DNA of 41,825 nt from an uncultured Prevotellaceae bacterium (GTDB lineage Bacteria; Bacteroidota; Bacteroidia; Bacteroidales; Bacteroidaceae). Shown piece after piece: positions 20,606-39,271 of this stretch. The notes under the pieces are model-generated. The model saw only the letters and a list, made by a program, of their open reading frames with translations. It made no database searches and was not told the origin of the DNA. Position 1 is the first letter of the stretch. Each line of letters begins with the position of its first letter. The stretch lies in the NCBI GenBank assembly GCA_900318885.1, contig ONMN01000015.1:1-41825 (forward strand), read 5' to 3'. The position numbers and the translations under genes are program-made.

Positions 20606-20617
20606 AATTCTATTCTT

Positions 20618-20653
20618 TTTAGGGTTAATAGGGATGTTAGGGGAAATTAGGGG
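20618..20653. repeat. TTAGGG-type short tandem repeat between ftsA and ftsZ
   Basis: On the plus strand TTAGGG or ATAGGG recurs at 20619, 20628, 20637 and 20647, spacings of 9, 9 and 10 bp. The tract ends exactly at the ftsA stop codon (20654-20656) and fills most of the ftsA-ftsZ spacer. Confidence 0.7.
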
Positions 20654-22111
20654 TTATTCTTCTTCAGGACCAAGAATGGTCTCACCAAGGTTCTTGAGTT
20701 TCTTCCAGCCCTTGTTCCAGAAACTGTTCTCCTTGCGGATACGTTCTTCCTCACGAGCTTCCTCCTCAGCCTTCTCTCGAGCCTGACGCTCCTCTTCTTC
20801 CTTCTTGCGCAAAGCCTCTTCTTCAGCACGACGAACCTCCTCAGCCGTACGTATCACGCCGGCAGGAGTCTCCGAAGCCTGACGGGCTCGACGCTGTTCG
20901 AGAGTCTCAGGCGTTATAACGGTACGCTGCTGACTGGCAAAGAGATCATTACTCAAAGGCAGCTCACTGCCTGCACAGTTGATATCGCCCTTAGCCAACA
21001 GTCCCAACACAGTATTCATCATGGCATCGTGAGCATTAATCTCTGCAATAGTCGATGTGATGGTCTGCGTCACAAATTTGGCGATGCGAATCTTGTCAAT
21101 ATGCGTATAGTTCTGGAAGGCTTTCTCGATATCTCTCAGATTAGAGCCGCCACCAGTGAGGATAATACCGCCCAGCAACTTGTCGCAGAACTCCTCGGGA
21201 ACCTGACACCACACGTTAGCAATGATTTCCTCCAGACGACCCTCGACAATCTCTATAAATTTACGCGTTTCCACCTGACGATCCTGGTCGATGGAGTATT
21301 TCATATTGTTGTCAATGTCGTTGTTTTCCGTAAAGGCCGAAGCATACTTGAGCTTCATCTTCTCAGCGTCACTCTCCTCCATCTGCAACGAGGCAATATC
21401 CTTCGTGATATTGTTGGCACCGAGAGGAATGACGGCCAGATGGCGCAGGATATTCTTCGAATACACGCTCACCGTCGTCGTGTCAGCGCCCAAGTCTACC
21501 AATGCACAGCCCGAACGGCGCTCAGCCTCGGTGAGCACGCTATCGGCCAAAGCCAACGGGGCGAGATAAAGCTCGGCAATATTAATGCCCGCGGTCTCGA
21601 AACACTTGTTGAGGTTGGCGTAGAAAGACTTGCGCTGCAAGATATTCAGGAAGTTACCCTCAATACGATTACACTGAATACCCACAGGATCGAGCTGGAA
21701 CTGCGAATCCACCTTATACTCCTGAGCTGCAGCATCAATAATCTGCTGGTCAGGGTATTTCATGTTACGGTTCTCATCCATCAGTTCAATCACCATGTCC
21801 TGCGTGACCTGCATACCATTGGGCAGGTCCTTGGCAATTAGATTGCGAATAGAGCGAATAGACTGTCCACCCACACCAACATACACCTGAGTGATACCCG
21901 TCTTGAGCTGTTTCTCCAGACGATTGATGATGTTGGTCAGGCACTGGGCTGTCTTGTCGATGTTGTAAACCACACCTTTGCGGATGCACGACGAGGAATC
22001 CTCCTTGACACAAGCCAGCACCTGAATGCTGCCGTCAAGGTTTTTCTTTCCCGCAATACCGGTAATCTTGGATGATCCCAGTTCAATAGCTACGATAAAG
22101 TCCTTTGCCAT
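20654..22111 (-). CDS. ftsA: Cell division protein FtsA
   Basis: 485 residues; an actin-like ATPase that ties FtsZ to the membrane. N-terminal VAIELGSSKITGIAGKK is the phosphate-1 loop, ALVDLGADTTTVSVY is phosphate-2, and GGIILTGGGSNLRDIEKAF is the adenosine motif. After the core there is a highly charged Glu/Arg/Lys region (about 424-461) that should form a single helix or coiled coil, then a C-terminal amphipathic helix (NSFWNKGWKKLKNLGETILG, 462-481), the membrane-targeting sequence. The charged spacer makes the membrane anchor unusually far from the core. It lies between ftsQ and ftsZ in the usual order. Confidence 0.94.
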   Translation of the reverse strand: MAKDFIVAIELGSSKITGIAGKKNLDGSIQVLACVKEDSSSCIRKGVVYNIDKTAQCLTNIINRLEKQLKTGITQVYVGVGGQSIRSIRNLIAKDLPNGMQVTQDMVIELMDENRNMKYPDQQIIDAAAQEYKVDSQFQLDPVGIQCNRIEGNFLNILQRKSFYANLNKCFETAGINIAELYLAPLALADSVLTEAERRSGCALVDLGADTTTVSVYSKNILRHLAVIPLGANNITKDIASLQMEESDAEKMKLKYASAFTENNDIDNNMKYSIDQDRQVETRKFIEIVEGRLEEIIANVWCQVPEEFCDKLLGGIILTGGGSNLRDIEKAFQNYTHIDKIRIAKFVTQTITSTIAEINAHDAMMNTVLGLLAKGDINCAGSELPLSNDLFASQQRTVITPETLEQRRARQASETPAGVIRTAEEVRRAEEEALRKKEEEERQAREKAEEEAREEERIRKENSFWNKGWKKLKNLGETILGPEEE

Positions 22112-22156
22112 ATACTTAACTTCTTAAACTTCTCTTACTTCTTTAACTTCTTCTCT
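22112..22156. repeat. 9-bp tandem repeat between ftsQ and ftsA
   Basis: Five successive 9-bp units (from 22112, 22121, 22130, 22139 and 22148) fit the minus-strand pattern GTTAAAGAA with variations. They run from the base before the ftsA ATG into the end of ftsQ, whose TAA (22145-22143) is in the fourth unit. The AAGAAG purine runs may also serve as the ribosome-binding region of ftsA. Confidence 0.8.
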
Positions 22157-22892
22157 TCTTACAAATAATCTGATTGTCAAATTCCAGACTGATATACGAA
22201 TACTTGTTCCAACCAGCTTTGCTTAGCCCATACTTATAAAACTTCTCCAAACGGTCCAGTTTTCTGGCAATATCTGTTGGCTGACCCAGATAAATGATAT
22301 GTTCACCAACACGGGGAATCATTTCAATAGAACCATCAGCCAACACGTTGAGCTGCTCAGCCTGCGAACGCCACATCTTGTTTTTAATAAGATAGTTGCC
22401 AACATTAGCTAACACCTTCTTGGCATACTGCTTGGTTACATGGCCTGTCACAATGACTAAATCACTGGTAAACTGGGTATTTGGCATGATATTACCATGC
22501 GTGTCGACATAGTAGTCTTCACCATTGTCGGCCTTGACACGAGCCACAGGAAGACGTTGCTTCAAATGAATAAATACACGTCCTGACTGCGTCTTATAAC
22601 ACTGGGCACTTTCTACAAAGGGATTTTTAAGCAGCGACTCCTCAATACGTCGGGCCGACACTTGACTCATCGGGTCACCCAACGGATAAAGACGTGCGTG
22701 CTGCAATTCATGCTTGATCTCGTCTGGAGTCAGAAATCCTTTCACCACCCCTTCTTCAATGTCGATTTTTACCTCGGTACACACATCGGAAAGCTCGTCA
22801 GGACGGTTGAAAGCCGTGATGGCGAGAACCAGATAGACTGCCAGAGCCATATCTATCAGGATGATGAACGATTTCTTCCAGTTGATGCTCAT
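22143..22892 (-). CDS. ftsQ: Cell division protein FtsQ/DivIB
   Basis: 249 residues. A short cytoplasmic tail (MSINWKKS) precedes one membrane helix (about 9-26) and a periplasmic part with a POTRA-like region (about 45-110; YPLGDPMSQVSARRIEESL, FVESAQCYKTQSGRVFIHLKQRLP with a break) and a beta domain. FtsQ links early and late divisome proteins through FtsL/FtsB. Sequence conservation is low, and the call rests on topology, the KNPFVESAQ-type POTRA signature and its position between murC and ftsA. It starts 10 bp after the murC stop. Confidence 0.88.
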   Translation of the reverse strand: MSINWKKSFIILIDMALAVYLVLAITAFNRPDELSDVCTEVKIDIEEGVVKGFLTPDEIKHELQHARLYPLGDPMSQVSARRIEESLLKNPFVESAQCYKTQSGRVFIHLKQRLPVARVKADNGEDYYVDTHGNIMPNTQFTSDLVIVTGHVTKQYAKKVLANVGNYLIKNKMWRSQAEQLNVLADGSIEMIPRVGEHIIYLGQPTDIARKLDRLEKFYKYGLSKAGWNKYSYISLEFDNQIICKKRRS

Positions 22893-22902
22893 ATATTATT
22901 GT

Positions 22903-24279
22903 TTACTTCTTATTGTTTAAAATCCTGGTAATATCAGGAACCATATTGTCAAGGTCACCGGCTCCCAACACGATAAGGACATCGAAATCACGGGACTTGA
23001 CGAGCGGCAACACCTGATCTTTCTGAATGATTTGCTTCTCAATGCCAGGACGCAGGTTGTCGTAGATCAACTGCGAGGTAACACCCTCAATAGGGAGTTC
23101 GCGAGCCGGATAAATCTCCGTGAGGATAACCTCATCCAACAGACTCAGCGCATCCGCAAAATCTTTATAGAAATCACGGGTACGGGTATAGAGGTGAGGC
23201 TGGAAAATGGCCGTAATCTTACGATCTTGATACAATTCACGGATGCTACGCGCACTCTGATAGATTTCCTTCGGGTGGTGAGCATAGTCTGAAAGGAAGA
23301 CGTGACGGTCGTTCTTGATCTTGAAATCGAAACGACGCTCAACACCGGCATAGGTCTTCATACCAATACGTAACTCCTCTGCCGTACAACCGGCAAGCTG
23401 AGCCATTGCCATTGCCGCAATGCCGTTCTCAATATTGATGGGAACAGGCTGACCTAACTGGATATTTTTTATCGACTCAATAGGCGAGATGAAGTCAAAA
23501 GTGATTTCACCATTGGCAATACGAATGTTCTCTGCATGGAAATCGCCCTCATTCAGAGCATAGTCATAGCGATGTACACCTGAAGGTAAATTCTCTTGCA
23601 TCTCCAAACCACGGTGGATAATCAGCGCACCCTGAGGCTGAATCAATTCCGTATAATGACGGAAACTATCCAGATAAGCCTCCTTGGTACCATAGATATC
23701 CAAATGGTCTGGGTCTGTCGATGTTATCACTGTCATATAAGGCGACAGCCAATGGAATGAGCGGTCGAACTCGTCAGCTTCTATCACAACATAATCTGAG
23801 TCGGAAAGGATGTAGTTCGTGCCATAATTCTTGGAGATACCCCCGAGGAAAGCGTTACAGTCCAGATGACTCTGGTGCATGATATGTGCACACATCGTCG
23901 ACGTGGTCGTCTTACCATGAGTGCCTGCCACACATAATCCTTTATGCTTACGGGTCAAGGTTCCTAACACCTGGGCACGCTTCTGAATCTCAAAACCATG
24001 CTCACGGAAATATTTCAATTCCTGATGGCTTTCGGGAATGGCTGGAGTATAGATAATCAGACTGGACTCCGGTCTGCGACAAGCATGGGGAATATCCTCC
24101 ACATTCTCTTCATAATGAATCAATGCACCTTCTTTCTCCAACTGACGTGTCAGGGTGCTTGGCGTCTTGTCATAACCGCCCACCACAACGCCACAATGGA
24201 TAAAGTAGCGTGCAATGGCACTCATGCCAATACCGCCTACCCCAATGAAATATACTGCTTTAATATCTTTTATTTCCAT
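22903..24279 (-). CDS. murC: UDP-N-acetylmuramate--L-alanine ligase
   Basis: 458 residues. It adds L-Ala to UDP-MurNAc, the first amino acid step of the peptidoglycan stem. The N-terminal Rossmann loop YFIGVGGIGMSAIARYF, the ATP-binding P-loop AGTHGKTTTSTM, and the C-terminal FQPHLYTRTRDF are all typical of MurC. ERRFDFK and YAHHPKEI are the MurC-specific central motifs. A direct repeat of AAACAATAA on the coding strand spans its stop codon and the spacer to ftsQ. Confidence 0.96.
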   Translation of the reverse strand: MEIKDIKAVYFIGVGGIGMSAIARYFIHCGVVVGGYDKTPSTLTRQLEKEGALIHYEENVEDIPHACRRPESSLIIYTPAIPESHQELKYFREHGFEIQKRAQVLGTLTRKHKGLCVAGTHGKTTTSTMCAHIMHQSHLDCNAFLGGISKNYGTNYILSDSDYVVIEADEFDRSFHWLSPYMTVITSTDPDHLDIYGTKEAYLDSFRHYTELIQPQGALIIHRGLEMQENLPSGVHRYDYALNEGDFHAENIRIANGEITFDFISPIESIKNIQLGQPVPINIENGIAAMAMAQLAGCTAEELRIGMKTYAGVERRFDFKIKNDRHVFLSDYAHHPKEIYQSARSIRELYQDRKITAIFQPHLYTRTRDFYKDFADALSLLDEVILTEIYPARELPIEGVTSQLIYDNLRPGIEKQIIQKDQVLPLVKSRDFDVLIVLGAGDLDNMVPDITRILNNKK

Positions 24280-24304
24280 ATATTATTTCTCTTTATTGAG
24301 AGGA

Positions 24305-25420
24305 TTATCTATTTTGATTTGCAAGTGATACAACCTCCTTGGCAATGATTTCTGCCGAAGCGGGCAGCGCCATCTTCAAAATGTTCTCACTGAGAGTCTG
24401 CAACTTTGCATCGTCCTTCACCGTATCAATAGCCAACGGCATCAATAATGCCGGAGCCTCAACATCCTTGACGTAGAGTGCAGCATCCTTATTGACCAAT
24501 GCCAGCGCATTCTTTGTCTGGTGGTCTTCTGCCACATTGGGCGAAGGAACAAGGATGACTGGTTTGCCGAGCAGACAGAATTCACTGATAGAACCAGCAC
24601 CCGCACGGCTGACAACCAAATCTGCTGCTTTATAAGCGGCACCCATATCACTGATAAAGTCTGTCACGACCAGATTCTCCAACTTTTCTTCCTTGGCGAG
24701 CTGCTCTTTAATCTGCTCATAATAATATTTACCTGTCTGCCAGATAAACTGTACACCACTCTGACGGATGACGTCAAGGTGTTTCAGCACACTCTCGTTA
24801 ACGGTACGGGCACCCAGGCTTCCACCTACGATGAGCACCGTCTTCTTCGACGCATCAAGACCAAAGGAACGAAGGGCCTCGGCTTTGCTCTGCGTATTCT
24901 CCAACAGTTGCTGACGCACGGGATTACCCGTTAACATGATCTTCTCTGCAGGGAAGAAACGCTCCATACCTTCATAGGCCACACAAATCTTTGCCGCCTT
25001 CTTGGCAAGCAGCTTGTTGGTAACGCCAGCATAGGAATTCTGTTCCTGAATCAGACAAGGAATACCCATGGCTGCTGCCTTGTTCAGCGTCGGACCACTG
25101 GCATAGCCGCCTACACCGACGGCCACCTGCGGACGAAACTCCTTGATGATTTGCTTGGCCATACGCTGACTCTTCCAAATCTTATAGAGCACCTTGACAT
25201 TCTTCAGCAGGTTCTTACGGTCGAAACCCTGGATAGGCAAACCTTTTATCTCGTAGCCGGCAGCAGGCACACGTTGCATTTCCATGCGTCCTAAAGCACC
25301 CACAAACAATATCTTGACTTCAGGATGCATCGCCTTGATAGCATTGGCAATAGATACAGCCGGGAAGATATGTCCACCCGTACCACCACCGCTGATTATT
25401 ACTCTTAATTCGTCATTCAT
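24305..25420 (-). CDS. murG: Lipid II synthase MurG (GlcNAc transferase)
   Basis: 371 residues; a GT28 enzyme at the inner face of the membrane that transfers GlcNAc to lipid I, making lipid II. The N-terminal donor/acceptor loop SGGGTGGHIFPAVSIANAI and the second Gly-rich loop GVGGYASGP are diagnostic. The C-terminal UDP-GlcNAc site is VVSRAGAGSISEFCLLGKP. It is between ftsW and murC as usual. A possible internal -7 element (TACTTTTG) is upstream at 25452-25445. Confidence 0.96.
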   Translation of the reverse strand: MNDELRVIISGGGTGGHIFPAVSIANAIKAMHPEVKILFVGALGRMEMQRVPAAGYEIKGLPIQGFDRKNLLKNVKVLYKIWKSQRMAKQIIKEFRPQVAVGVGGYASGPTLNKAAAMGIPCLIQEQNSYAGVTNKLLAKKAAKICVAYEGMERFFPAEKIMLTGNPVRQQLLENTQSKAEALRSFGLDASKKTVLIVGGSLGARTVNESVLKHLDVIRQSGVQFIWQTGKYYYEQIKEQLAKEEKLENLVVTDFISDMGAAYKAADLVVSRAGAGSISEFCLLGKPVILVPSPNVAEDHQTKNALALVNKDAALYVKDVEAPALLMPLAIDTVKDDAKLQTLSENILKMALPASAEIIAKEVVSLANQNR

Positions 25421-25444
25421 AAGTGTTCTATCTCTAATACGCTA

Positions 25445-25452
25445 CAAAAGTA
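25445..25452 (-). promoter_or_regulatory. Possible internal promoter -7 element before murG
   Basis: TACTTTTG on the minus strand fits TAnnTTTG and is 24 bp upstream of the murG ATG, in the 48-bp ftsW-murG gap. No clear TTTG lies 19-21 bp upstream; the nearest partial match (CTTG) is 17 bp away. Confidence 0.35.
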
Positions 25453-25468
25453 CAAATTTTCTATCAAT

Positions 25469-26728
25469 TCAAGCCCTATTTGGCTCATTTTCTTTCACTT
25501 TCTTCATTTTTGCTGACCTACTGACACTCAAAATGGCTCCAATATAGGCACAGTTGATAATTGTCGACGTACCACCTTTGGAAATGAGTGGCAACGGCTG
25601 TCCCGTGACTGGAGCCAATCCGACGGCAACCATCATGTTGAAAGTGGCCTGTATGACCAACAACAGTCCGAGACCCATCGCCAGAAATGCCGGAAAATTA
25701 TTCTCACACCGACTGGCAATACGGGCACAACGGTAAAGCAGGACAACATAGAGGAACATAACCGCGAAAGCCCCCACGATTCCCAATTCCTCAATGACGA
25801 TGGCATAGATGAAATCCGAGAAGGCTTGCGACAGGAAATCACGCTCTGTGCTCTTACCGGGTCCCTTACCGATAATACCGCTCGACACAATGGCAATATT
25901 TGCATGAGCCACCTGGGCATCTTTGTCAAGATCGTACTCCTGAGGGGTCGGTTTGGGTTTGCCAAACTTCATGATACGACTTTTCCACGTGTCTGCACGG
26001 TGGAACATCTTTTCCACGAAGTTCTTTTCTTTCTTGGGCTGATTGGCCTGATCAACCTGCTCCGTCTTGGTCAGCGTCTTTTCTTCATCACTGATATCGT
26101 GACCGACCAACATGACCATCGAAACAACCACAACGACAAAAATTATGATGACACCCGCCAGTTTACCCAACTGCTTCAAGGAAACCAGACCGATAAACAT
26201 CATCAGGAAGACAACCGCAAAGAGCATCGCTGCCGTAGAGAGGTTCTCCAAGCCTATCAGCAAACAGGCTGGAAGGGTAATCGAAAGAATCCATTTAAAG
26301 GCTTTTTTGTCTGCCCCGTTCTCACGCTGCATGGCGGCAAGAATCTGCGCTACAGCCAATACAATCGTTCCCTTGGCAATCTCTGAAGGCTGGAACGTGA
26401 AACCAAACAGGTTAATCCAACGTCCGGCATCACCGACCTTCGTTCCTGCCAGCAATACCCAGAGCAGGGTAATTACTGAAATCAGCATCAGGAAGGGTGT
26501 CATCAACTTAAAATACCGACATGGTATATTCAGCGTGAGGATAGCCACCACAACACCTGCCATAATAGTGAAGGCATGATAGGCTATAGGCCCTACGTAG
26601 TTCTGGCTCTTATACGTCAGTCCGCTGGAAGCTGAGAATACTTCCACAACACTGATCATACAGAGGAAGAAGAACACCATCCAGATGACCTTGTCGCCTT
26701 TGAAGAGATTACCTATTCGATTGTTCAT
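25469..26728 (-). CDS. ftsW: SEDS peptidoglycan glycosyltransferase FtsW
   Basis: 419 residues with about 10 membrane helices. As a SEDS glycosyltransferase it polymerises lipid II at the septum together with FtsI. The first helix segment is KVIWMVFFFLCMISVVEVFS. The conserved GKGPGKSTERDFLSQAFSDF and IYAIVIEELGIVG resemble the FtsW/RodA extracellular signature, and GLAPVTGQPLPLISKGGTS is the C-terminal SEDS motif. A hydrophilic, Lys-rich loop (about residues 210-265) in the middle is longer than in E. coli FtsW. Position in dcw favours FtsW over RodA. Confidence 0.94.
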   Translation of the reverse strand: MNNRIGNLFKGDKVIWMVFFFLCMISVVEVFSASSGLTYKSQNYVGPIAYHAFTIMAGVVVAILTLNIPCRYFKLMTPFLMLISVITLLWVLLAGTKVGDAGRWINLFGFTFQPSEIAKGTIVLAVAQILAAMQRENGADKKAFKWILSITLPACLLIGLENLSTAAMLFAVVFLMMFIGLVSLKQLGKLAGVIIIFVVVVVSMVMLVGHDISDEEKTLTKTEQVDQANQPKKEKNFVEKMFHRADTWKSRIMKFGKPKPTPQEYDLDKDAQVAHANIAIVSSGIIGKGPGKSTERDFLSQAFSDFIYAIVIEELGIVGAFAVMFLYVVLLYRCARIASRCENNFPAFLAMGLGLLLVIQATFNMMVAVGLAPVTGQPLPLISKGGTSTIINCAYIGAILSVSRSAKMKKVKENEPNRA

Positions 26729-26742
26729 ATTATTCTTGTATT

Positions 26743-26769
26743 TCTAGAGATTCTAGATCGTCTAGAGAC
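26743..26769. repeat. TCTAGANNN 9-bp tandem repeat between murD and ftsW
   Basis: Three contiguous 9-bp units (TCTAGAGAT, TCTAGATCG, TCTAGAGAC) start at 26743, 26752 and 26761. The murD stop TAG (26764-26762) is formed by the CTAGA of the third unit. Confidence 0.85.
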
Positions 26770-28093
26770 TTCTTGCTAATTCCTTAAACTGTTCACCACG
26801 GTCTTCCATATTCTTGAAGAGGTCGAACGATGCGCAACAGGGTGACAGCAACACCGTCATGCCGGGCTCGGCCATCTCGTAACAAGCTGCCACACAGTCT
26901 TTCATGGAGTGGGTGTCACGAACGGGAATACCCAGTGAGTCGAAGTTATCGTGCAGCTTCTGATTGTCAGCACCCAGATAGACCAGTCCGGCACACTTCT
27001 CCTTCACCAGCGGTATGATCGGCTCGTAGTCGTTGCCTTTATCCTTACCACCGATGATGAGGATAGTCTTGGTCTTCATCGACTCCAGCGCATACCAGCA
27101 GGCGTCGACATTGGTAGCCTTCGAATCGTTGATATACTGGACGCCACGAACGGTGCACACCTTCTCCAAACGGTGCTCCACACCGGGGAAATCACTCAAC
27201 GACTTACGAATATTCTCTTTCTTAATACCTGCAACATCTGAGGCAATACCTGCAGCCAGCGAGTTGTAGATATTATGCTTACCTGTCAGACTCAGCGATT
27301 CCTGTTCCATATTGAACGGCTCGGGCTTCTCTATCTTATACTGGCCCTCCTCGATATAACCAATACTGCCGTTCTCCTTCAGTTCGGAGAAAGGGTATTG
27401 GATAGCCTTGATGTCATACTTCTCCAACTCCCTCTTGATGATAGGGTCATCATTCCAATAGATGAAGGCATCCTGTGGCGTCTGGTTTTGGATGATACGC
27501 ATCTTAGCGTCCACATAGTTCTGCATCTTGAAATCATAGCGGTCCAGATGGTCAGGCGTGATATTGAGCAGAATGGCAACATTGGCACGGAAATCGTACA
27601 TATTATCGAGTTGGAAAGAGGACAACTCAATGATGTAATACTCATGTGGATCCTCAGCAACCTGCAGGGCCAGCGAATTACCAATATTACCAGCCAGACC
27701 GGCATCGTAGCCTGCCTCCTTGAAGATATGATAGATAAGACTCGTCGTCGTCGTCTTACCATTCGAACCTGTAATACAGATCATCTTCGAATGGGTATAA
27801 CGACCGGCAAACTCAATCTCACTGATGATATGAATGCCTTTCTCCTTGATCTTTACAATCATCGGGGCCGTATCGGGAATACCCGGACTCTTGATGATTT
27901 CGTCGGCATCCAGAATCTTTTCGTCTGTATGGTGACCTTCTTCCCAACATATCTGGTGGTCATCCATCAACTTCTTATACTTATCATTGATCTTCGACAT
28001 GTCGCTGACAAACACGTCGAAACCTTGTTTCTTGGCCAGAACGGCAGCTCCTGCTCCGCTCTCTCCGGCTCCTAATATGACTATCTTACTCAT
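26762..28093 (-). CDS. murD: UDP-N-acetylmuramoylalanine--D-glutamate ligase
   Basis: 443 residues. It adds D-Glu to UDP-MurNAc-L-Ala. The N-terminal KIVILGAGESGAGAAVLAKK is the uracil-binding domain, CITGSNGKTTTTSLI the P-loop, GVEHRLEKV the conserved central motif and INDSKATNVDA the Mur-ligase C-terminal link. LLSPCCASFDLFKNMEDRG is the MurD-specific end. It starts 2 bp after mraY ends, so translation may be coupled. Its TAG stop is inside a TCTAGANNN repeat. Confidence 0.96.
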   Translation of the reverse strand: MSKIVILGAGESGAGAAVLAKKQGFDVFVSDMSKINDKYKKLMDDHQICWEEGHHTDEKILDADEIIKSPGIPDTAPMIVKIKEKGIHIISEIEFAGRYTHSKMICITGSNGKTTTTSLIYHIFKEAGYDAGLAGNIGNSLALQVAEDPHEYYIIELSSFQLDNMYDFRANVAILLNITPDHLDRYDFKMQNYVDAKMRIIQNQTPQDAFIYWNDDPIIKRELEKYDIKAIQYPFSELKENGSIGYIEEGQYKIEKPEPFNMEQESLSLTGKHNIYNSLAAGIASDVAGIKKENIRKSLSDFPGVEHRLEKVCTVRGVQYINDSKATNVDACWYALESMKTKTILIIGGKDKGNDYEPIIPLVKEKCAGLVYLGADNQKLHDNFDSLGIPVRDTHSMKDCVAACYEMAEPGMTVLLSPCCASFDLFKNMEDRGEQFKELARSL

Positions 28094-28095
28094 CT

Positions 28096-29367: not shown

Positions 29368-29395
29368 AACTCTTTCTTTTTTCGTTATTCCGTTA

Positions 29396-30874
29396 TTACG
29401 AGAGACCAAAAATTTCTCTCACAATCTCCCTGTCATCAAAATGATGCTTCACACCCTTGACTTCCTGATAGTCCTCATGACCCTTGCCGGCAATGAGGAT
29501 GACATCACCCTTTTGGGCCAGCATACTGGCCGTACGGATAGCTTCCTTGCGGTCTACAATACTCACTACCTTTTTCATCTGTTTAGCGTCGAGACCTGCC
29601 AACATATCATTGATGATATCCTGAGGTTCTTCAAAACGTGGATTATCAGAAGTGATAATGACCTTGTCACTCTGCTTGACGGCCTCCTGAGCCATCAGCG
29701 GACGCTTGCCCTTGTCGCGATTGCCACCGGCACCACAAACGGTAATGACTTGTCCGCCCTTACCGTCCAGCACCTCATGAATGGCATTGAGCACATTCTC
29801 CAAGGCATCGGGCGTATGGGCATAGTCTACAATAGCGGTCACGCCTTCCTGTGAACGGATAGGTTCCAGTCGACCTGCCACACTCTTTAACGTGCTGAGC
29901 ACCAAGAGGATATCCTCTGGTTTCTTTCCTAACATCACAGCAGCACCATAGACTGCCAACAGGTTGGAAACATTGAACTTTCCAATAAACTGAACACCTA
30001 CTTCGCGACCGTCAATCTCCAGATACATACCTTCGAAATGACACTCGATGATACGGGCACGGAAATCGGCCATCGAACGGGTGCTATAGGTCTTCACCTG
30101 CGCCTTCGTATTCTGAACCATCACACGACCATTCTTGTCGTCGGCATTGGTAATGGCGAAAGCATCCTTTGACAGTCCGTCGAAGAAGGCTTTCTTGGCA
30201 TCACGGTAGTTCTCGAAGGTCTTGTGGTAATCCAGATGATCACGGGTGAGGTTGGTAAAGAGACCACCGGCAAATTTCAGTCCGCCAATACGCTTCTGAG
30301 CAATTGCATGACTGGAACACTCCATAAAGGCATACTCACAGCCTGCCTCCACCATCTTGGCCAACAGTCGGTTGAGTTCGATGGGATCAGGAGTGGTATG
30401 GTCGGCAGGAATTACCTCGTCCTCAATATAGTTGCTGACAGTAGAAAGCAGACCGCACTTGTGACCAAACTTACGGAACATATTATATAATAAGGTGGCA
30501 ATAGTGGTCTTGCCATTGGTTCCTGTCACACCGACCAGCTTCAGCTTCTGCGAAGGCTCACCATAGAAGACGGTGGCAACCTTTCCAACAGCATCTTCCG
30601 TCGAAGCAACCTGCACATAGGTCACACCGCCCGCGTGCTCAGCGGTTCTCCCGCTGAGATTCTCGGGCAAATCCTCACACAGCACAGCCTTCGCTCCCAA
30701 CTCGATAGCCTTGGGAATAAAGCGGTGACCGTCTGTCTGCGTACCTTTCATTGCCACGAAAAGATGACCATTCTCTACCTTGCGGGAGTCAATATTCACC
30801 CCCGTGATGTCCACCTCTGCATCACCCACGATAGCCAGAGGGGTTACATGCTTCAATAGTTCTGTCAGCTTCAT
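29396..30874 (-). CDS. murE: UDP-MurNAc-tripeptide ligase (meso-diaminopimelate adding)
   Basis: 492 residues. It adds the third stem amino acid to UDP-MurNAc-L-Ala-D-Glu. The P-loop is [29 protein letters not shown] is the Mur-ligase motif, and SDNPRFEEP contains the DNPR signature typical of enzymes that select meso-diaminopimelate rather than lysine. The final [10 protein letters not shown] matches the end of the family. The stop lies in an 8-bp direct repeat (CGTTATT copies at 29383 and 29391) within the short murE-mraY gap. Confidence 0.95.
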
Positions 30875-30892
30875 ATATACCTTATTATATTA

Positions 30893-33025: not shown

Positions 33026-33031
33026 CTCTTC

Positions 33032-33520: not shown

Positions 33521-33522
33521 TA

Positions 33523-34434
33523 TTATATTTTCTCTGCTATTCTCAATTTTGCACTTCTACTACGCGGATTACGCTGCTGCTCATCCTCCGTGGGAGTAAT
33601 CATCTTCTCAACCAACCGATAAGGTGACGAGATACGGCCATAAAAGTCCTGCTCAACCTTACCTTCCGCATTGCCGGCCTTCATGACATTCTTGACGATA
33701 CGGTCTTCCAGCGAATGATAGGTAATGATACTCAGTCTTCCACCCTCACGGAGCAGGTCCGTAGCACCTTTAAGCATATCACGTAAGGCATCCATCTCGT
33801 GGTTCACCTCTATACGCAGCGCCTGATACAACTTGGCCATATCTTTCTTCTCACGCTCAGAACGCATCAGGGGCTCAACAGCCTCAGCCAACTGACCCGT
33901 AGTCGTTATCTCATGCTGCCGACGACAATCGCATATCGCTTTGGCGATGCGACGGGCATTCTTCAACTCTCCGTAGAGATAGAACACATCGGCCAACTGC
34001 TCCTCACTATAGTTGTTCAAGATGTCAGCGGCCGTCTGTCCGGCACGTTTGTTCATCCTCATGTCCAACGGAGCGTCAAAGCGGAAAGAGAAACCTCGCG
34101 TCTCGTCGTCGAAATGGTGACTTGACACACCCAAATCTCCTAACAGACCATCAATCTTCTCTACTTCATAGTAGCGCATCCACTGACTGATATATCTAAA
34201 GTTGCTGCGAACGAAGGTAAATCTATCATCATCGACAATATTTTTCTCCGCATCAGCATCCTGGTCGAAGCTATACAGATGGCCTTTCTTACCCAAACGG
34301 GACAGAATCTCTTTCGAATGACCACCACCACCGAAAGTTACATCCACGTAAATGCCGTCGGGCTGGATATCCAGCCCGTCGACGCTCTCTTTTAATAGAA
34401 CAGGAACGTGATATGTCTCTGCGGTCGTTATCAT
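33523..34434 (-). CDS. rsmH: 16S rRNA (cytosine1402-N4)-methyltransferase
   Basis: 303 residues. The SAM-binding motif VDVTFGGGGHSKEIL opens the Rossmann domain; GLLGDLGVSSHHFDD and GFSFRFDAPLDMRMN are typical of RsmH (formerly MraW). SIITYHSLEDRIVKN is the C-terminal signature, and the end NPRSRSAKLRIAEK is conserved. It methylates C1402 of 16S rRNA in the decoding centre. It lies 21 bp after mraZ, as in most dcw clusters. Confidence 0.96.
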   Translation of the reverse strand: MITTAETYHVPVLLKESVDGLDIQPDGIYVDVTFGGGGHSKEILSRLGKKGHLYSFDQDADAEKNIVDDDRFTFVRSNFRYISQWMRYYEVEKIDGLLGDLGVSSHHFDDETRGFSFRFDAPLDMRMNKRAGQTAADILNNYSEEQLADVFYLYGELKNARRIAKAICDCRRQHEITTTGQLAEAVEPLMRSEREKKDMAKLYQALRIEVNHEMDALRDMLKGATDLLREGGRLSIITYHSLEDRIVKNVMKAGNAEGKVEQDFYGRISSPYRLVEKMITPTEDEQQRNPRSRSAKLRIAEKI

Positions 34435-34455
34435 TATTTTCTATCGCTTTCAGGG

Positions 34456-34908
34456 TCATTCTTGCTCTACCATCATCAACTGTTCAAGGGCATTGCCGAA
34501 GTCCTCTGGCTTCATTTGCTGTTCTTCGGCCTTACGACTGCTCCATATCTCAATGGTGTCATCCATGCCGACAAACTTAATGTCCTGGTCTATCTCGGCC
34601 ATACGCAGATAGCGTTTCGGTATCAGGAAACGTCCGTTACCGTCAAGGGTCACCAGTTCTACTTCCGACACAAACTGACGGAATACCTGCTGTTCCTGAC
34701 GGTTCCATCTGTTGAGACGGGCCCTCAACAAATCCATCTGCTCATTCCACACGCTTTCAGGATACAATACCAGACAGGCTTGGAACACATCCTTGCGCAA
34801 CACAAGGCGTTCCTCACCACCAGCCTGCAAAACCTTGCGGAAGGTGGCGGGAAGGAATGCACGTCCCTTCACGTCAATCTTGGCTTCTATATTACCTAAA
34901 AAACGCAT
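34456..34908 (-). CDS. mraZ: Transcriptional regulator MraZ
   Basis: 150 residues from the Met at 34908 (MRFLGNIEAKIDVKGRAFLP). The frame is open to 35052, but that would run through the operator and promoter. Two SpoVT/AbrB-type domains are seen, with DVKGRAFLPATFRK and LDGNGRFLIPKRYL as the two conserved DXXGR-type loops. MraZ forms a ring-shaped oligomer, binds TGGG repeats in front of dcw and represses it. A matching three-repeat site lies upstream (34961-34990). A purine-rich AAAGAGG precedes the start. Confidence 0.95.
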   Translation of the reverse strand: MRFLGNIEAKIDVKGRAFLPATFRKVLQAGGEERLVLRKDVFQACLVLYPESVWNEQMDLLRARLNRWNRQEQQVFRQFVSEVELVTLDGNGRFLIPKRYLRMAEIDQDIKFVGMDDTIEIWSSRKAEEQQMKPEDFGNALEQLMMVEQE

Positions 34909-34948
34909 GCGTACCTCTTTTATATATTTTTTTATACGAGTTTGGCTG

Positions 34949-34956
34949 CAAAGGTA
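34949..34956 (-). promoter_or_regulatory. -7 element of the mraZ/dcw promoter
   Basis: TACCTTTG on the minus strand fits TAnnTTTG and lies 40 bp upstream of the mraZ ATG. The usual -33 TTTG position is taken by the TGGGG repeats of the MraZ site. Confidence 0.65.
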
Positions 34957-34960
34957 ATCA

Positions 34961-34990
34961 TTTTCCCCCACATTCCCCCACTTTTCTCCA
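34961..34990 (-). promoter_or_regulatory. MraZ-binding repeats (operator of the dcw cluster)
   Basis: On the minus strand three 10-bp direct repeats run toward mraZ: TGGAGAAAAG, TGGGGGAATG and TGGGGGAAAA. This matches the known MraZ site, TGGGN repeats separated by 5 bp. The site begins 4 bp upstream of the -7 element, where bound protein would block RNA polymerase. Confidence 0.8.
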
Positions 34991-35025
34991 CTTTTTTTAG
35001 TGAATAAACTATAAAAAGTTACTTT

Positions 35026-35053
35026 ATTGCACATTTTTCTAAAAAAGTGCAAT
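35026..35053. promoter_or_regulatory. Palindrome between the mraZ and glsA-like promoters
   Basis: ATTGCACATTTTT (35026-35038) and AAAAAAGTGCAAT (35041-35053) are inverted repeats of 13 bp with one mismatch and a 2-bp centre. The right arm reaches the -33 region of the plus-strand promoter, whose own TTTG is missing, so it may be an operator. Confidence 0.5.
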
Positions 35054-35073
35054 CATTTTCTAAATAAAATCAC

Positions 35074-35081
35074 TATCTTTG
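35074..35081 (+). promoter_or_regulatory. -7 element of the glsA-like gene promoter
   Basis: TATCTTTG fits TAnnTTTG and lies 26 bp before the ATG at 35108. No TTTG is seen 19-21 bp upstream. Confidence 0.6.
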
Positions 35082-35107
35082 CATCCTGTTAGGGACAATA
35101 TAGAGAA

Positions 35108-35932
35108 ATGGGACAGATAACGGAGAAAACCATTGACATTGATCAGATACTAAAAAACAAAATGGGGTCCAAGGCAAAATGGATTCCAGGTTTCTTAGTA
35201 TCGTGGCTCAAACGTATTGCCCATCAGGATCAGGTGAATGCATTCCTTTGGGAGTCACGCGATAAGGTGGGGACTCCGTGGCTCGAAGCCTGCGTAGAAT
35301 ATCTGCAGATGACTCTTAAGATAGAAGGAACAGAAAACCTACCGGCCAAAGATGACGGACGGCTATATACCTTCGTGTCAAACCATCCTCTGGGGGGCGC
35401 TGATGGTGTAGCACTCGGAGCCATCATCGGAAAGCATTATGATTCCCGGTTCCGCTATCTGGTCAACGACCTCCTGATGTACCTGCCCGGACTGGCACCA
35501 CTCTGTATCCCCATCAACAAAACCGGTCACCAAAGTCGTAACTTCCCGGCTATGGTCAAGGCGGGATTCGAAAGCGACAACCACATGCTGATGTACCCGG
35601 CAGGCATCTGCTCACGCCGCAAGAACAAGGTCATCAGAGATATCCCTTGGTCGAAGACGTTTATATCAAAGAGCGTGGAATACCAGCGCGACGTCGTACC
35701 CATCCATTTCAGCGGCCAGAACTCCAATTTCTTCTACCGTTTGGCAAATTTCTCCGACCGTTTCCTACCCTTCAACCTCGCCATGCTTTTCCTCGTTGAC
35801 GAGATGTACAAAAACGTCGGCAAGACATTCGAGGTGAGAATTGGAAAACCTATCCCCTGGCAGACCTTCGACAAAAGCAAAAGTCCATCGGAATGGGCAC
35901 AATATGTGCAAGATCTGGTCTATAATCTCTAG
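35108..35932 (+). CDS. glsA: PlsC-family O-acyltransferase, probable glycine-lipid GlsA
   Basis: 274 residues. The lysophospholipid-acyltransferase core has VSNHPLGGADG as the His/Asp active-site motif (His followed by Asp after five residues, a spacing seen in this subfamily) and LMYPAGICSRRK as the phosphate-binding motif that corresponds to PEGTRS. With the next gene it forms a pair like Bacteroides GlsA/GlsB, where GlsB N-acylates glycine and GlsA adds a second acyl chain on the 3-hydroxyl, giving glycine lipids. The pairing is strong, but the substrate (glycine or ornithine) is inferred from lineage. Its TAG stop is inside a TCTAGANNN repeat. Confidence 0.78.
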   Translation: MGQITEKTIDIDQILKNKMGSKAKWIPGFLVSWLKRIAHQDQVNAFLWESRDKVGTPWLEACVEYLQMTLKIEGTENLPAKDDGRLYTFVSNHPLGGADGVALGAIIGKHYDSRFRYLVNDLLMYLPGLAPLCIPINKTGHQSRNFPAMVKAGFESDNHMLMYPAGICSRRKNKVIRDIPWSKTFISKSVEYQRDVVPIHFSGQNSNFFYRLANFSDRFLPFNLAMLFLVDEMYKNVGKTFEVRIGKPIPWQTFDKSKSPSEWAQYVQDLVYNL

Positions 35933-35954
35933 GATATCTAGATTATCTAGAACA
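35928..35954. repeat. TCTAGANNN 9-bp tandem repeat between the glsA- and glsB-like genes
   Basis: Units TCTAGGATA (35928), TCTAGATTA (35937) and TCTAGAACA (35946), then a decayed TCTCGTTAA. The upstream stop TAG (35930-35932) is part of the first unit. Confidence 0.85.
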
Positions 35955-35984
35955 TCTCGTTAACAACTATAATAACTTCAGACA

Positions 35985-36977
35985 ATGGAACAACCTATCA
36001 TCTCTCCCATCAGCAAGGAAGTCCTCAAGAGTGAGTTGACGCCCGACAAGCAGTTGCGAATGACCAACAAGAGCAACAACGAAATCTACATCATTACGGC
36101 GCATAATGCTCCGAATGTGATGCAGGAGATTGGTCGTCTGCGCGAAATCGTATTCCGCGAGGCTGGCGGTGGAACGGGCAAAGAGGTCGATATCGACGAG
36201 TTCGATATCTGCGACAACTGCTACAAACAACTCATCGTCTGGAATCCGGAGGAGGAGGAGATTATAGGAGGTTACCGCTACCTGTTAGGTTCCGATTGGG
36301 AGTACGACGAGAAGGGACAACCCATCCTTGCTACCAGTCATATGTTCCATTTCTCTGAGAAATTCTTGAAGGAATATGCCCCTTGGACGGTAGAGCTGGG
36401 ACGCTCCTTCGTCTCACTACCCTACCAGTCATCCAAGATGGGTGCGAAGAGCATGTTCGCCCTTGACAACCTGTGGGATGGTCTGGGAGCACTGACCGTC
36501 ATCCGTCCTTCCATCAAATACTATTTTGGCAAGATGACCATGTATCCCTCTTATATCCGCAAGGGACGCGACATGATACTCTTCTTCCTCAAAAAGCACT
36601 TTGACGACAAGGAACGGCTCATCATTCCGATGAAACCACTGGAAATTGAGACAAATCCGACGGAATTGGAAGCGCTCTTCTGCGGCACAAACTTCAAGGA
36701 GGATTACATGATTCTGAATCGTGAAATCCGTAAACTGGGCTATAACATCCCGCCATTGGTCAATGCCTATATGGGACTTTCACCAACGATGAAACTCTTT
36801 GGCACCGCCATCAACTATGGTTTCGGCGATGTGGAGGAAACGGGTATCCTCATTGCCATCGACGAGATTTTTGAATTCAAGCGCAAGCGCCATATCGACT
36901 CATTCATTGAGGCTCACCGCGACGAACTCGAACTGACCTCTGGCGCCAACAAGCTGATTTACAAGGACAAAGACTAA
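35985..36977 (+). CDS. glsB: GNAT-type N-acyltransferase, probable glycine-lipid GlsB
   Basis: 330 residues. A GNAT-like N-acyltransferase of the OlsB/putative-hemolysin group (COG3176). The fold signature is LREIVFREAGGGTGKEVDIDEFD, here split as LREIVFREAGGG and TGKEVDIDEFD, followed by IIGGYRYLLG and VELGRSFVSLPYQ, where acyl-ACP and the amino acid bind. It should attach a 3-hydroxy acyl chain to the amino group of glycine, giving commendamide-type molecules. The partner acyltransferase is 52 bp upstream. Ornithine is the alternative substrate. It converges on dgt with a 3-bp gap. Confidence 0.78.
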   Translation: MEQPIISPISKEVLKSELTPDKQLRMTNKSNNEIYIITAHNAPNVMQEIGRLREIVFREAGGGTGKEVDIDEFDICDNCYKQLIVWNPEEEEIIGGYRYLLGSDWEYDEKGQPILATSHMFHFSEKFLKEYAPWTVELGRSFVSLPYQSSKMGAKSMFALDNLWDGLGALTVIRPSIKYYFGKMTMYPSYIRKGRDMILFFLKKHFDDKERLIIPMKPLEIETNPTELEALFCGTNFKEDYMILNREIRKLGYNIPPLVNAYMGLSPTMKLFGTAINYGFGDVEETGILIAIDEIFEFKRKRHIDSFIEAHRDELELTSGANKLIYKDKD

Positions 36978-36980
36978 TTG

Positions 36981-38324
36981 TCAGATAATCGGCAACGAAA
37001 TACCGTTAATCTTCTGATAGACATCCAAGGCATAGACATCCGTCATGCCTGAGATATAGTCGATGATAGCCATCAGGCGCGTTTCCAAATCATCGGCATT
37101 GATGTCATACTGCGACGAAACACGCCCTATCAACTGCTGTGAATAATAACGTTCCGGATTCATCACCGCCTCGGTCATCTTGTCCATCAGCGTAGCCATA
37201 ATCTGGTAACCCGACAACTCCACATCCAGTACAGGACGGCTCTTATAGATTTTCTGCACGGAGAGCTTGGCACACCGTTTATAGGCCTCACACTGTTTAG
37301 GACTGATATGGTCTATCAGACTGCCCTCAAAAGTGCCATTCAGTATCTCCTCCTCATGGTCCACAAAGGTCTTGACGCACTCATTCTCCAGCTTACCAAT
37401 GACACAAGCACGCAGATAGACCACCATCTCGTTCTCATCGGTTAACTGCTCGTCAACAATACGTTGCTTGATACGTTCTTGCGTCTCTTCATCAAAGAAA
37501 TCAAGGAACAACTTCGACACCGTTTCATACGACAGGATCTTCAATTTATGGGCATCCTCCAAGTCCATAATCTCATAGCAGATATCATCAGCTGCCTCCA
37601 CCAAGTACACCAACGGATGACGCACATAACGGAGGGGTTCACCGGGCTTCGACGTACAAAAAATACCCATTTCATCGGCTAATCGCTGATAAATCTCTTT
37701 CTCGCTATCGAAGAATCCGAACTTCCCCTTCTTGCTGGGGGCCATCGAGGAATAGGGATACTTCACGATACTGGCAATGGTGGAATAGGTCATCACAAAA
37801 CCGCCCGGACGGCGCCCCCTGAACTGATGCGTCAACAGGCGGAAAGCATTGGCATTACCTTCAAAATGAGTGATGTCCGACCAGAATGCCGGCGATACCT
37901 TCTCTTTCAAAAACCGTCCTGCACCTTCCGTAAAGAATGTCTGGATGGCTTTCTCACCGGAATGACCGAAAGGGGGATTACCCAAGTCGTGTGCCAGACA
38001 AGCGGTGGCCACAATCTGTCCAATCTCCTCAAACAGGGTGCCACGCAATTCCGGATGACGGTCTTTCGTCAACAACCGGGTGACATCATTACCCAATGAC
38101 ATACCCACACTGGCCACCTCTAATGAGTGTGTCAGTCGGTTATGCACAAACACACTGCCCGGCAACGGGAATACCTGAGTCTTGTTCTGCAGGCGTCGGA
38201 ACGGGGCCGAGAAAATCAACCTGTCATAATCACGCTTAAACTCCGTACGGTCGTCGTGCCGTTCCACATGGCGGTGCTCCTGCCCCAACCGCTTGTTAGA
38301 TATCAATTGTTTCCAGTCCATCAT
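36981..38324 (-). CDS. dgt: dGTP triphosphohydrolase (HD superfamily)
   Basis: 447 residues. It hydrolyses dGTP, and perhaps other dNTPs, to the nucleoside plus triphosphate and so controls dNTP pools. The HD metal ligands are seen in RLTHSLEVASVG (first His) and ATACLAHDLGNPPFGHSGE (His-Asp, then His). The N-terminal DRLIFSAPFRRLQNKTQV and the DDICYEIMDLEDAH helix are typical of the family. It is the last gene of a set NSS transporter - HhH protein - dgt, separated from the HhH gene by 41 bp of 9-bp repeats. Confidence 0.93.
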   Translation of the reverse strand: MMDWKQLISNKRLGQEHRHVERHDDRTEFKRDYDRLIFSAPFRRLQNKTQVFPLPGSVFVHNRLTHSLEVASVGMSLGNDVTRLLTKDRHPELRGTLFEEIGQIVATACLAHDLGNPPFGHSGEKAIQTFFTEGAGRFLKEKVSPAFWSDITHFEGNANAFRLLTHQFRGRRPGGFVMTYSTIASIVKYPYSSMAPSKKGKFGFFDSEKEIYQRLADEMGIFCTSKPGEPLRYVRHPLVYLVEAADDICYEIMDLEDAHKLKILSYETVSKLFLDFFDEETQERIKQRIVDEQLTDENEMVVYLRACVIGKLENECVKTFVDHEEEILNGTFEGSLIDHISPKQCEAYKRCAKLSVQKIYKSRPVLDVELSGYQIMATLMDKMTEAVMNPERYYSQQLIGRVSSQYDINADDLETRLMAIIDYISGMTDVYALDVYQKINGISLPII

Positions 38325-38333
38325 ATCATTTAT

Positions 38334-38372
38334 AACTTCTTTAACTCCTCTAACTTCTTAACTCCTTAAAAC
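38334..38372. repeat. 9-bp tandem repeat between the HhH gene and dgt
   Basis: Units AACTTCTTT (38334), AACTCCTCT (38343), AACTTCTTA (38352) and ACTCCTTAA (38361) continue into AACTCC (38370). The HhH gene's stop (38368-38366) is inside the fourth unit. The motif is the same type as at ftsQ-ftsA. Confidence 0.8.
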
Positions 38373-39271
38373 TCCACATACGGCTCCAACCGGCGAATAG
38401 CCTCCGGTGGGAAGTCCTTCGATAGGCGCAAATCATCCAAACTGGTAATCTTCCCATGCAACCGACGATAGTCCAGAATGGTCTTGGCCTGATAATAATT
38501 TATATATGGATGCTTGCGTAACTGTTGTAAGCCCAACTTATTGACATTCAGCTTCTTAGGCGAAGCACCCTGAATCACAAAATATTTCTTCGACTCCTGT
38601 GGAAAACCCTCTATCTCGTCCAATTGGTCGACACTGACATAACCTCCCAACCATTGTCCGTGACGTACTATCTCCTTGGCATAATAGGTGCCAATACCTG
38701 GCACCGTCCGCAACTGCGTGGTATCAGCAGTATTCAGCACAACATGCTCGTTTTCCTTAATCTTAACGGGATACCGCAAACTAGAATCTCTAGACTCTCT
38801 AGTATCTCTAGATTCTCTAGCACCCCCTACCAGCATCGCCGCCGGCTGATAATCGCTGGAAATCCGGATATACGGTTCCAACTCCCGATACTGCTTGACA
38901 GTCAGTCCATAGAGCTTTGCAAAATCTTCTTTCTGCCGGTAGATGCCCCCTTTCGCTCGGTATTTATAAATGTTCCTTACTTGCCACGGCTGCAGTCCCA
39001 GTCGCAGCAACTGCGTACTATCTGCCGTATTCGGGTCAAACGGAAACCGCTCCACCGCACGGCCCTCCACCGCATAATAGCTGTTACTAGAATCTTTAGT
39101 CTCTCTAGAATTTCTAGAAAATCTAGATTCTCTAGAATAACTAGAATCTATAGTTTCTTCATCTCCTTGCGTCGACGTCGGCGGGTTCTCCCCGCCAATC
39201 CATATCCCCACCAGCGCCAATACCCCGACACATACCGCGGCAATCGCTACCCTTCGGTCATTCCGGTTCAT
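38366..39271 (-). CDS. Membrane-anchored helix-hairpin-helix (ComEA-like) protein
   Basis: 301 residues from the Met at 39271. It overlaps the transporter stop as ATGA; the longer frame from 39319 is rejected. One N-terminal membrane helix (about 8-26) is followed by three helix-hairpin-helix modules: about 79-136, 178-223 (TVPGIGTYYAKEIV) and 241-296. ComEA-type proteins bind DNA outside the membrane during uptake; whether this one does is not shown. The linkers before and after the first module are unusual: 40-62 (SYSRESRFSRNSRETKDSS) and 151-164 (ARESRDTRESRDSS) are Ser/Arg-rich, encoded by TCTAGANNN repeats also found in intergenic spacers. Confidence 0.85.
   Translation of the reverse strand: MNRNDRRVAIAAVCVGVLALVGIWIGGENPPTSTQGDEETIDSSYSRESRFSRNSRETKDSSNSYYAVEGRAVERFPFDPNTADSTQLLRLGLQPWQVRNIYKYRAKGGIYRQKEDFAKLYGLTVKQYRELEPYIRISSDYQPAAMLVGGARESRDTRESRDSSLRYPVKIKENEHVVLNTADTTQLRTVPGIGTYYAKEIVRHGQWLGGYVSVDQLDEIEGFPQESKKYFVIQGASPKKLNVNKLGLQQLRKHPYINYYQAKTILDYRRLHGKITSLDDLRLSKDFPPEAIRRLEPYVEF
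38781..38825. repeat. In-frame TCTAGANNN repeat, second linker of the HhH protein
   Basis: Five 9-bp units starting CTAG at 38781, 38790, 38799, 38808 and 38817 encode the ARESRDTRESRDSS linker. The motif matches the repeats at 26743, 35928 and 39086. Confidence 0.85.
39086..39157. repeat. In-frame TCTAGANNN repeat, first linker of the HhH protein
   Basis: Eight contiguous 9-bp units from 39086, four of them exact TCTAGA at 39104, 39113, 39122 and 39131, the others one or two bases different. They encode Ser-Arg-x triplets on the minus strand in frame with the gene. Confidence 0.88.

Follow-up and report, generated by a model that had tools for sequence, protein, structure and literature searches.

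An uncultured Prevotellaceae bacterium carries, dispersed over its genome, a coherent family of short tandem arrays of the form (TCTAGA-N3)n, in which a palindromic hexamer is largely kept, the pitch is nearly always 9 bp and the three-base linker is nearly free. Four of these arrays lie in a 41,825-nucleotide stretch of contig ONMN01000015.1 (assembly GCA_900318885.1, positions 1 to 41,825; hereafter the window), for which an original prediction, made from the letters alone, had described gene junctions built from 9-bp repeats that contain the upstream stop codon. Two things are mixed in that description: 7- to 9-bp arrays that turn over at tolerant sites, after stops and in protein linkers, and the (TCTAGA-N3)n family, here called the CTAG family. 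The latter was overlooked as one genome-wide family that also enters open reading frames (ORFs). Repeats in the window were searched for with Tandem Repeats Finder at a score of 30, and the members of the CTAG family are as follows.

26742..26773, minus strand: murD-ftsW junction, three TCTAGA-N3 units; the murD TAG stop lies within the first unit; Tandem Repeats Finder period 9.
35919..35957, plus strand: glsA-glsB junction, three CTAG units in 9-bp phase; the glsA TAG stop lies within the first unit; period 9; glsA by family assignment.
38780..38821, minus strand: in-ORF CTAG array of five units, (Ser-Arg-X)n, between HhH motifs (PF12836).
39086..39153, minus strand: in-ORF CTAG array of six CTAG units, (Ser-Arg-X)n, in the N-terminal portion of the HhH protein that also holds 38780..38821.

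Family assignment identified murD and ftsW at the first junction, the ftsW match being below the cut-off. The genome of the window is referred to as the own genome, and relatives are labelled G007, G033, G040, G055 and so on. A triple unit was defined as TCTAGA-N3-TCTAGA-N3-TCTAGA, with reversed sequence as the control. The own genome holds 43 triple units at 24 places, and its reversed control holds none. Further counts came from a 420-kb sample of the own genome, the contigs of which had been preselected as array-bearing, with some stretch ends placed at arrays, so densities in the sample err high. There, 47 of the 58 TCTAGA hexamers fell in arrays, and the next TCTAGA within 60 bp lay 9 bp away 31 times and 18 bp away three times, with no other distance recorded. 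CTAG overall was depleted in the sample (222 observed against 1135 expected from dinucleotides and 683 from a higher-order model). Linkers took 57 of the 64 possible triplets among 390 examined. A universal rule of six fixed bases plus k variable ones for 7-, 8- and 9-mers was tried and rejected, since the contiguity of variable columns was clearly above chance at period 9 only.

The hexamer was kept within arrays while neighbouring linkers looked random. The larger sets of middle units and linkers include loci fetched for exact triple units (quadruple for GTDB), which inflates their middle-unit counts: exact middle units numbered 46 of 51 for the own genome, 31 of 39 for G007, 33 of 35 for G033 and 389 of 426 for the GTDB loci. 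When the test was repeated on the 420-kb sample without the picked loci, 19 of 22 units between TCTAGA hexamers 18 bp apart were exact (129 of 132 bases), comprising 17 of 18 inside ORFs and 2 of 4 outside (22 of 24 bases outside). Neighbouring linkers were identical in 3 of 95 cases in the own genome, about 4% being expected, and in 2 of 46 in the sample. As the own linkers thus bear no trace of duplication, slippage alone is insufficient for the CTAG family. For the ten own arrays that have no more than one phased CTAG in G007 and in G033, neighbour linker identity was 0.33 per base against 0.30 from composition; in a relative, a few of these lineage-restricted sites resemble decayed arrays. 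Among the GTDB loci, 108 of 590 neighbouring linkers were identical against 3.4% expected, so that young arrays are probably products of slippage.

The involvement of stop codons comes from the TAG within TCTAGA. One frame of a TCTAGA array terminates a gene, and the other two read Ser-Arg-X or Leu-Glu/Asp-X. The upstream stop within the repeat, as claimed in the original prediction, was indeed seen at murD-ftsW, glsA-glsB and ftsQ-ftsA, and for the CTAG family it is the third reading frame of the same array. From the 29 own arrays, 18 lie in ORFs, nine read as Ser-Arg-X and nine as Leu-Glu/Asp-X, and 11 lie outside. The gap to the 3′ end of the upstream gene was ≤3 bp in 12 of 13 cases and negative, with the stop inside the array, in seven; the gap to the downstream start was ≤3 bp in 3 of 9, where gene calls are longest ORFs and start positions are therefore rough. 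In the GTDB loci, which were chosen by pattern, such short gaps were found upstream in 25 of 94 cases (15 negative) and downstream in 1 of 63. Hosts of in-ORF arrays by family assignment included prfB, murF, aroB, rpoN and a kdtA-like protein, the last below the cut-off, and many in-ORF arrays sit in loops of variable length.

The preferred hexamer differs between species. TCTAGA triples occurred in 18 of 60 same-genus genomes, the own genome included (G009, 172; own, 43; G033, 33; G007, 31), ACTAGT triples in five of the 60 (G050, 28; G007, 7; G059, 7; G040, 5; G018, 2) and TCCGGA triples likewise in five (G036, 24; own, 3; G040, 2; G059, 2; G027, 1), with reversed controls at zero for all three words save one triple in G009. 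These words, or dialects, are preferred by species and not exclusive to them. A GTDB scan returned at least 116 stretches; among the 80 matches listed, 12 carried titles naming Victivallales, Lentisphaeria, Kiritimatiellae or Proteobacteria; the others bore Bacteroidales-type or unspecified names. Ten genomes picked from the GTDB matches held 2 to 285 triples, with none in controls. Single metagenome-assembled genomes (MAGs) may be contaminated; three genomes titled by strain or isolate and not tagged as MAGs, chosen for having a match, held 14 (Prevotella sp. tc2-28), 6 (Prevotellamassilia timonensis) and 40 (Prevotellaceae MN60) triple units. A phage origin was considered and set aside; four stretches lay in viral contigs against one for an AGATCT control.

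Further 6+3 words were encountered alongside these. Adjoining ACGAAT-N3 and ACGGAT-N3 arrays, both of non-palindromic words, occur twice within about 1.1 kb (L017:2183-2245 and 3247-3310), and TCCCAT-N3-like arrays at several junctions of G022 (L069, L070, L328 and L330) form a further dialect with a non-palindromic word. AGAAGT-N3 was examined as a possible member of the CTAG family and rejected; its linker is mostly TAA, TAG or TAT, which marks it as a separate, more ordinary repeat.

Positions of the arrays are often common to species. Flank composites of the 29 own arrays were placed in G007, G033, G040 and G055; array 26 had no orthologue in any of the four and array 27 none in G007 or G033, and sites in G055 were fetched in part only (15 of 29 found). 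Of the sites located in each relative, at least three phased CTAG stood at 13 of 27 (G007), 8 of 26 (G033), 3 of 25 (G040) and 2 of 15 (G055). Where an array was required in both species, 276 of 292 hexamer bases but 64 of 125 linker bases were identical. Third positions of unchanged amino acids in array-bearing genes agreed with those of G033 at only 0.59 (2677 of 4551), so neutral arrays would not be expected to survive. The prfB array was found in the own genome and G007 and was absent from 19 other relatives, in which the gene length is unchanged; for kdtA, G040 has a gene of equal length without the array. Given the lack of length change relative to array-free relatives, the prfB and kdtA arrays arose by substitutions or same-length replacement.

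One and the same site can carry different motifs in different species. At the murD-ftsW junction, the own genome and G033 carry phased TCTAGA units, the three CTAG units of G007 include one 10-bp step, and G040 carries TCGAAAC 8-mers and G022 GTCCCATAG 9-mers. In six further relatives the two genes overlap (G055), lie 3 to 5 bp apart (G037, G035 and G054) or are separated by a 41-bp spacer without CTAG units (G024) or an 855-bp spacer (G016). For glsA-glsB, ten relatives were tried, and none of the nine in which the junction was located had a CTAG array. At own TCTAGA sites, ACTAGT-N3 stands three times in G007, and G040 shows TCCGGA-N3 twice and ACTAGT-N3 once. One loop of 3-dehydroquinate synthase (aroB) carries short repeats in all five species (L242, L218, L351, L383 and L389): the own genome and G033 have TCTAGA units there, G040 and G055 have different heptamers, and G007 has an apparent inverted repeat of short units. 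Periodic tracts were scored with windows of ≤80 bases excluded. Among 41 in-ORF sites whose relative lacks a CTAG array, 11 had such a tract at threshold 18, whereas 3 of 444 control windows in ORFs did; the counts were 4 versus 2 at threshold 19 and 2 versus 0 at 20. Of these 11 sites, eight carry a clearly different motif and three are apparent decayed CTAG or undefined repeats. Junction sites gave no clear excess of periodic tracts (6 of 24 against 29 of 209 controls). Long inverted heptamer repeats were also noted in G033 and G040 (L365 and L385), directly after stops where the own genome has a CTAG array; these may act as terminators.

Turnover at closer range could be followed between G055 and G068, which are 85.2% identical over 141 kb. 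They share four CTAG arrays, two of which differ by exactly one 9-bp unit; within the shared arrays, aligned linkers match throughout and the hexamers show two base differences. Another two CTAG-type arrays found in G055 are either absent from G068 or present there in decayed form. Heptamer arrays change more between the two species, with one-sided presence, a concerted unit change (TGTTCAA versus TGGTCAA) and one seeming inversion. Inverted flanks (GTTACGAAAAA ... TTTTTCGTAAC) enclose a heptamer array whose orientation is opposite in the two species, as if flipped (L415:9772-9805 and L416:10575-10605).

The original prediction had treated a 9-bp period as the shared property of at least five junctions and took it to suggest a general process rather than one repeat family. 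Autocorrelation was computed for lags 3 to 15 in spacers, with z values taken against dinucleotide shuffles. In the 20 spacers of the window (2720 bp), the anticipated 9-bp excess was clear (lag 9, z 7.0; the other lags at most 3.3, at lag 3). In the 189 spacers of the 420-kb sample, lags 7, 8 and 9 were similarly in excess (z 6.2, 5.9 and 5.7), so 9 bp is not a common property; lags 3, 4 and 11 were also raised (z 9.3, 5.2 and 4.5), lag 9 stood at z 5.2 after removal of three CTAG spacers, and an earlier run with 20 shuffles gave z 10.9, 6.0 and 9.1 for lags 7 to 9. Short periodicities in general are thus in excess in this genome, of which the window is by chance a 9-mer-rich part. Counting four-unit arrays in the sample gave 12 of period 7, eight of period 8 and 16 of period 9, 11 of the last being of the CTAG family. 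The general process is therefore supported in part: different motifs at the same site across species and periodic tracts at in-ORF sites speak for it, while the period is not specifically 9 and one family supplies most period-9 arrays. Identical tract lengths across distant strains, which would have told against it, were not what was seen, as arrays differed by whole 9-bp units between G055 and G068.

Repeats were present at all five junctions named, as were the 8-, 14- and 33-bp repeats described beside them, and Tandem Repeats Finder reported period 9 at three of the five only (22116-22152, 26742-26773 and 35919-35957). The repeats of the window outside the CTAG family are as follows.

22112..22152, minus strand: ftsQ-ftsA junction, four units of AGAAGTTAA type, linker not free; holds the ftsQ stop; Tandem Repeats Finder period 9 at 22116-22152.
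38330..38373, minus strand: HhH-dgt junction (dGTPase by family assignment), irregular AGAAGTTAA/GGAGTTAA array of mixed spacing; Tandem Repeats Finder gives a mixed array with periods 17, 8 and 18.
20606..20655, minus strand: ftsA-ftsZ junction, CCCTAA-type units 9-10 bp apart; the TAGGG units at 20618 are unreported by Tandem Repeats Finder at score 30.
29381..29401, minus strand: murE-mraY, two to three 8-bp units of TTCGTTAT type; similar 8-mers recur in sampled relatives.
22896..22919, minus strand: murC-ftsQ, 14-bp unit, 1.7 copies.
11014..11088, plus strand: 33-bp unit, 2.3 copies, its sequence unrelated to the CTAG family.

Two other repeats were noted in the window. In-ORF repeats of 18, 42 and 141 bp occupy positions 7383-7775 in the first half of ORF 7129-8622, the 18-bp unit encoding Gln-Pro-Arg-Gly-Gly-Tyr, and a 10-bp direct repeat, TTCCCCCACA, lies at 34963-34981, inside or just upstream of ORF 34456-35052.

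The differing preferred words point to a recognition system or to a fast repeat-turnover process. The explanation we tentatively favour is that the hexamers are tandem sites of a putative cooperative, sequence-specific DNA-binding factor with a species-preferred word, as the pitch, symmetric core, free linker and dialects fit such a factor. One symmetric, dimer-sized site would then recur every 9 bp and be bound cooperatively, and the word preferred by the factor would vary by species (TCTAGA, ACTAGT or TCCGGA). The arrays occupy places that tolerate extra or altered sequence, namely gene ends, where TAG supplies or adjoins the stop, and protein loops, where the frames are open. Architecture, dispersal, a kept hexamer beside random-looking linkers, often shared positions, dialects and whole-unit differences in copy number are observed; a protein that reads the arrays, its cooperativity and its purpose are inferred. 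Several observations weigh against the binding-factor explanation. No binding protein was found, one family having been tested, TrpR, and no search for ribbon-helix-helix (RHH) proteins having been made; TrpR (PF01371), whose operator has tandem CTAG, was rejected as the binder: 0 of 60 genomes passed the cut-off, four weaker matches fell short of it, and the controls from E. coli and B. subtilis were positive. The arrays adjoin gene 3′ ends, as seen in the upstream-stop gaps, and not promoters, which is odd for a regulator, and unrelated 7- to 8-mers often occupy the same sites in relatives, as if the site merely tolerates arrays. Only four middle units lie outside ORFs when picked loci are left aside, two of them exact, so the constraint outside ORFs depends mainly on picked loci; at own-array sites of G007 that lack a run of three exact units, none of six middle units was exact (30 of 36 bases). 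The contrast of hexamer and linker identities between species is conditioned on arrays in both, and in the closest pair, G055 and G068, the only differences aligned in the four shared arrays fell in hexamers. Dialects overlap, the own genome also having TCCGGA triples and G007 both TCTAGA and ACTAGT; other 9-bp cores (AGAAGT, ACGAAT and TCCCAT) are non-palindromic, and the pitch departs, if rarely, to 8 or 10 bp. The placement at 3′ ends and the replacement of motifs fit a permissive-site process nearly as well. A further reading, which we consider rather unlikely, is that a fast-changing recognition system selects 9-bp-pitch arrays of its word into operon stops and the coding sequence of essential genes such as prfB and murF, forming a chromosome-wide addressing or marking code in Bacteroidales, some Victivallales and Kiritimatiellae, of which the papers searched hold no description.

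Chief among the rivals is turnover without function at permissive sites, a possible if doubtful account in which 7- to 9-bp arrays would arise by slippage, vary in copy number, decay and be replaced, with TCTAGA just the commonest word of the lineage and 9-mers common in ORFs because nine bases keep the frame. Motif replacement at fixed sites and, between G055 and G068, the one-unit differences and concerted heptamer change are in its favour, as are the identical linkers of the GTDB loci, where some arrays resemble young perfect 9-mers; in addition, a non-palindromic variant unit was followed by an identical unit in 21 of 146 cases (3.7 expected). It is at odds with the absence of a duplication trace among own linkers despite a nearly kept hexamer, including in the 10 lineage-restricted arrays, whose linker identity is like that of shared ones and near composition. 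It also sits poorly with arrays that persist where synonymous sites are scrambled and with the same-length recoding of prfB and kdtA. Improbable in our estimate is a molecular drive, in which a biased process, for instance a unit-rewriting enzyme or, by analogy with DNA uptake sequences (DUS), the uptake and recombination of DNA that bears arrays, would spread the arrays irrespective of locus function, the dialects following the specificity of the machinery. Dialects per species, coding arrays in stop-free frames only and random linkers even in lineage-restricted arrays agree with it; against it, we know of no uptake specificity in Prevotella. Such traits are shared by DUS, including dialects and an in-frame stop that limits positions, whereas the 24 strict arrays of the own genome are far fewer than the thousands of DUS per genome described in the part of that source used here (PMC3630211). 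A role at the RNA level, with palindromic units pairing with their neighbours as 6-bp stems with 3-nt loops and acting on mRNA ends or translation coupling, is very improbable. TCTAGA, ACTAGT and TCCGGA are all self-complementary and arrays abut stop codons, but variant units were followed by their reverse complement in just 5 of 146 cases (3.5 expected), compared with the 21 followed by an identical unit; this neighbour test shows no compensatory pairing and disfavours hairpins between units. Moreover, the hexamers are kept within ORFs too.

If a factor reads the hexamer, its sites are present in dozens of genes of common gut and rumen bacteria, including housekeeping genes, with many of the sites inside coding sequence, and the dialects are a natural experiment in changing DNA specificity. 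If the arrays are pure turnover, the repeat process keeps one part of the unit and randomizes another, which simple slippage does not predict. Either reading explains the joint appearance of stop codons and Ser-Arg or Leu-Glu repeats in these genomes.

Simple bacterial minisatellites, or variable-number tandem repeats, differ in copy number by whole units, as do the 9-bp units of two of the four CTAG arrays shared by G055 and G068. Unlike minisatellites, CTAG arrays combine a random-looking linker with a kept hexamer, and one hexamer recurs across many unlinked loci; likeness of adjacent units over the whole unit was not found in the own genome and was partly found in other genomes. The original prediction knew of no description of such junctions, yet the broader kind has been described (MacGregor 2015, PMC4679880). 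In the portion of that paper used here, TAACTGA repeats of Beggiatoaceae, cyanobacteria and some Bacteroidetes are short direct repeats of intergenic DNA that can overlap the stop codon of the gene upstream and can extend into ORFs; like the CTAG family, they form many short intergenic arrays per genome, are patchy across species and differ in length by whole units. By the same account they have an oriented 7-bp unit without a free linker and lie mostly just upstream of starts, whereas the CTAG family pairs a palindromic hexamer with three nearly free bases and lies behind stops and in protein linkers. Of the traits of short tandemly repeated repetitive and TAACTGA-type sequences, many short arrays of one word at junctions were found (43 triples; 11 of 29 own arrays outside ORFs), and contiguous heptamers without a free linker were not (the unit being a hexamer and 3 bp, with 57 of 64 linkers seen). 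The general phenomenon of direct repeats between genes, at stops and in ORFs is thus already known; the literature searched, open-licence PMC papers, yielded no description of TCTAGA-N3 arrays, and the hexamer with a free linker, dialects of palindromic words and recoded conserved genes are unreported there. The DUS of Neisseriaceae likewise have species dialects of one short word and occur in coding DNA within frame limits; they number thousands of words per genome, and the part of the source drawn on mentions no 9-bp tandem phase (PMC3630211). The parS of pSM19035, as given in the sections used of PMC9499535, consists of WATCACW heptads bound by the RHH protein omega, with one dimer per 7-bp unit and at least four contiguous repeats needed, and so offers a functional precedent for the binding-factor explanation. 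It resembles the CTAG arrays in its tandem short sites of fixed pitch and differs in having six sites on one plasmid, a non-palindromic 7-bp unit and a known protein. The fixed pitch and conserved core of RHH-type operators and centromeres are both found in the CTAG arrays, with rare 8- and 10-bp steps.

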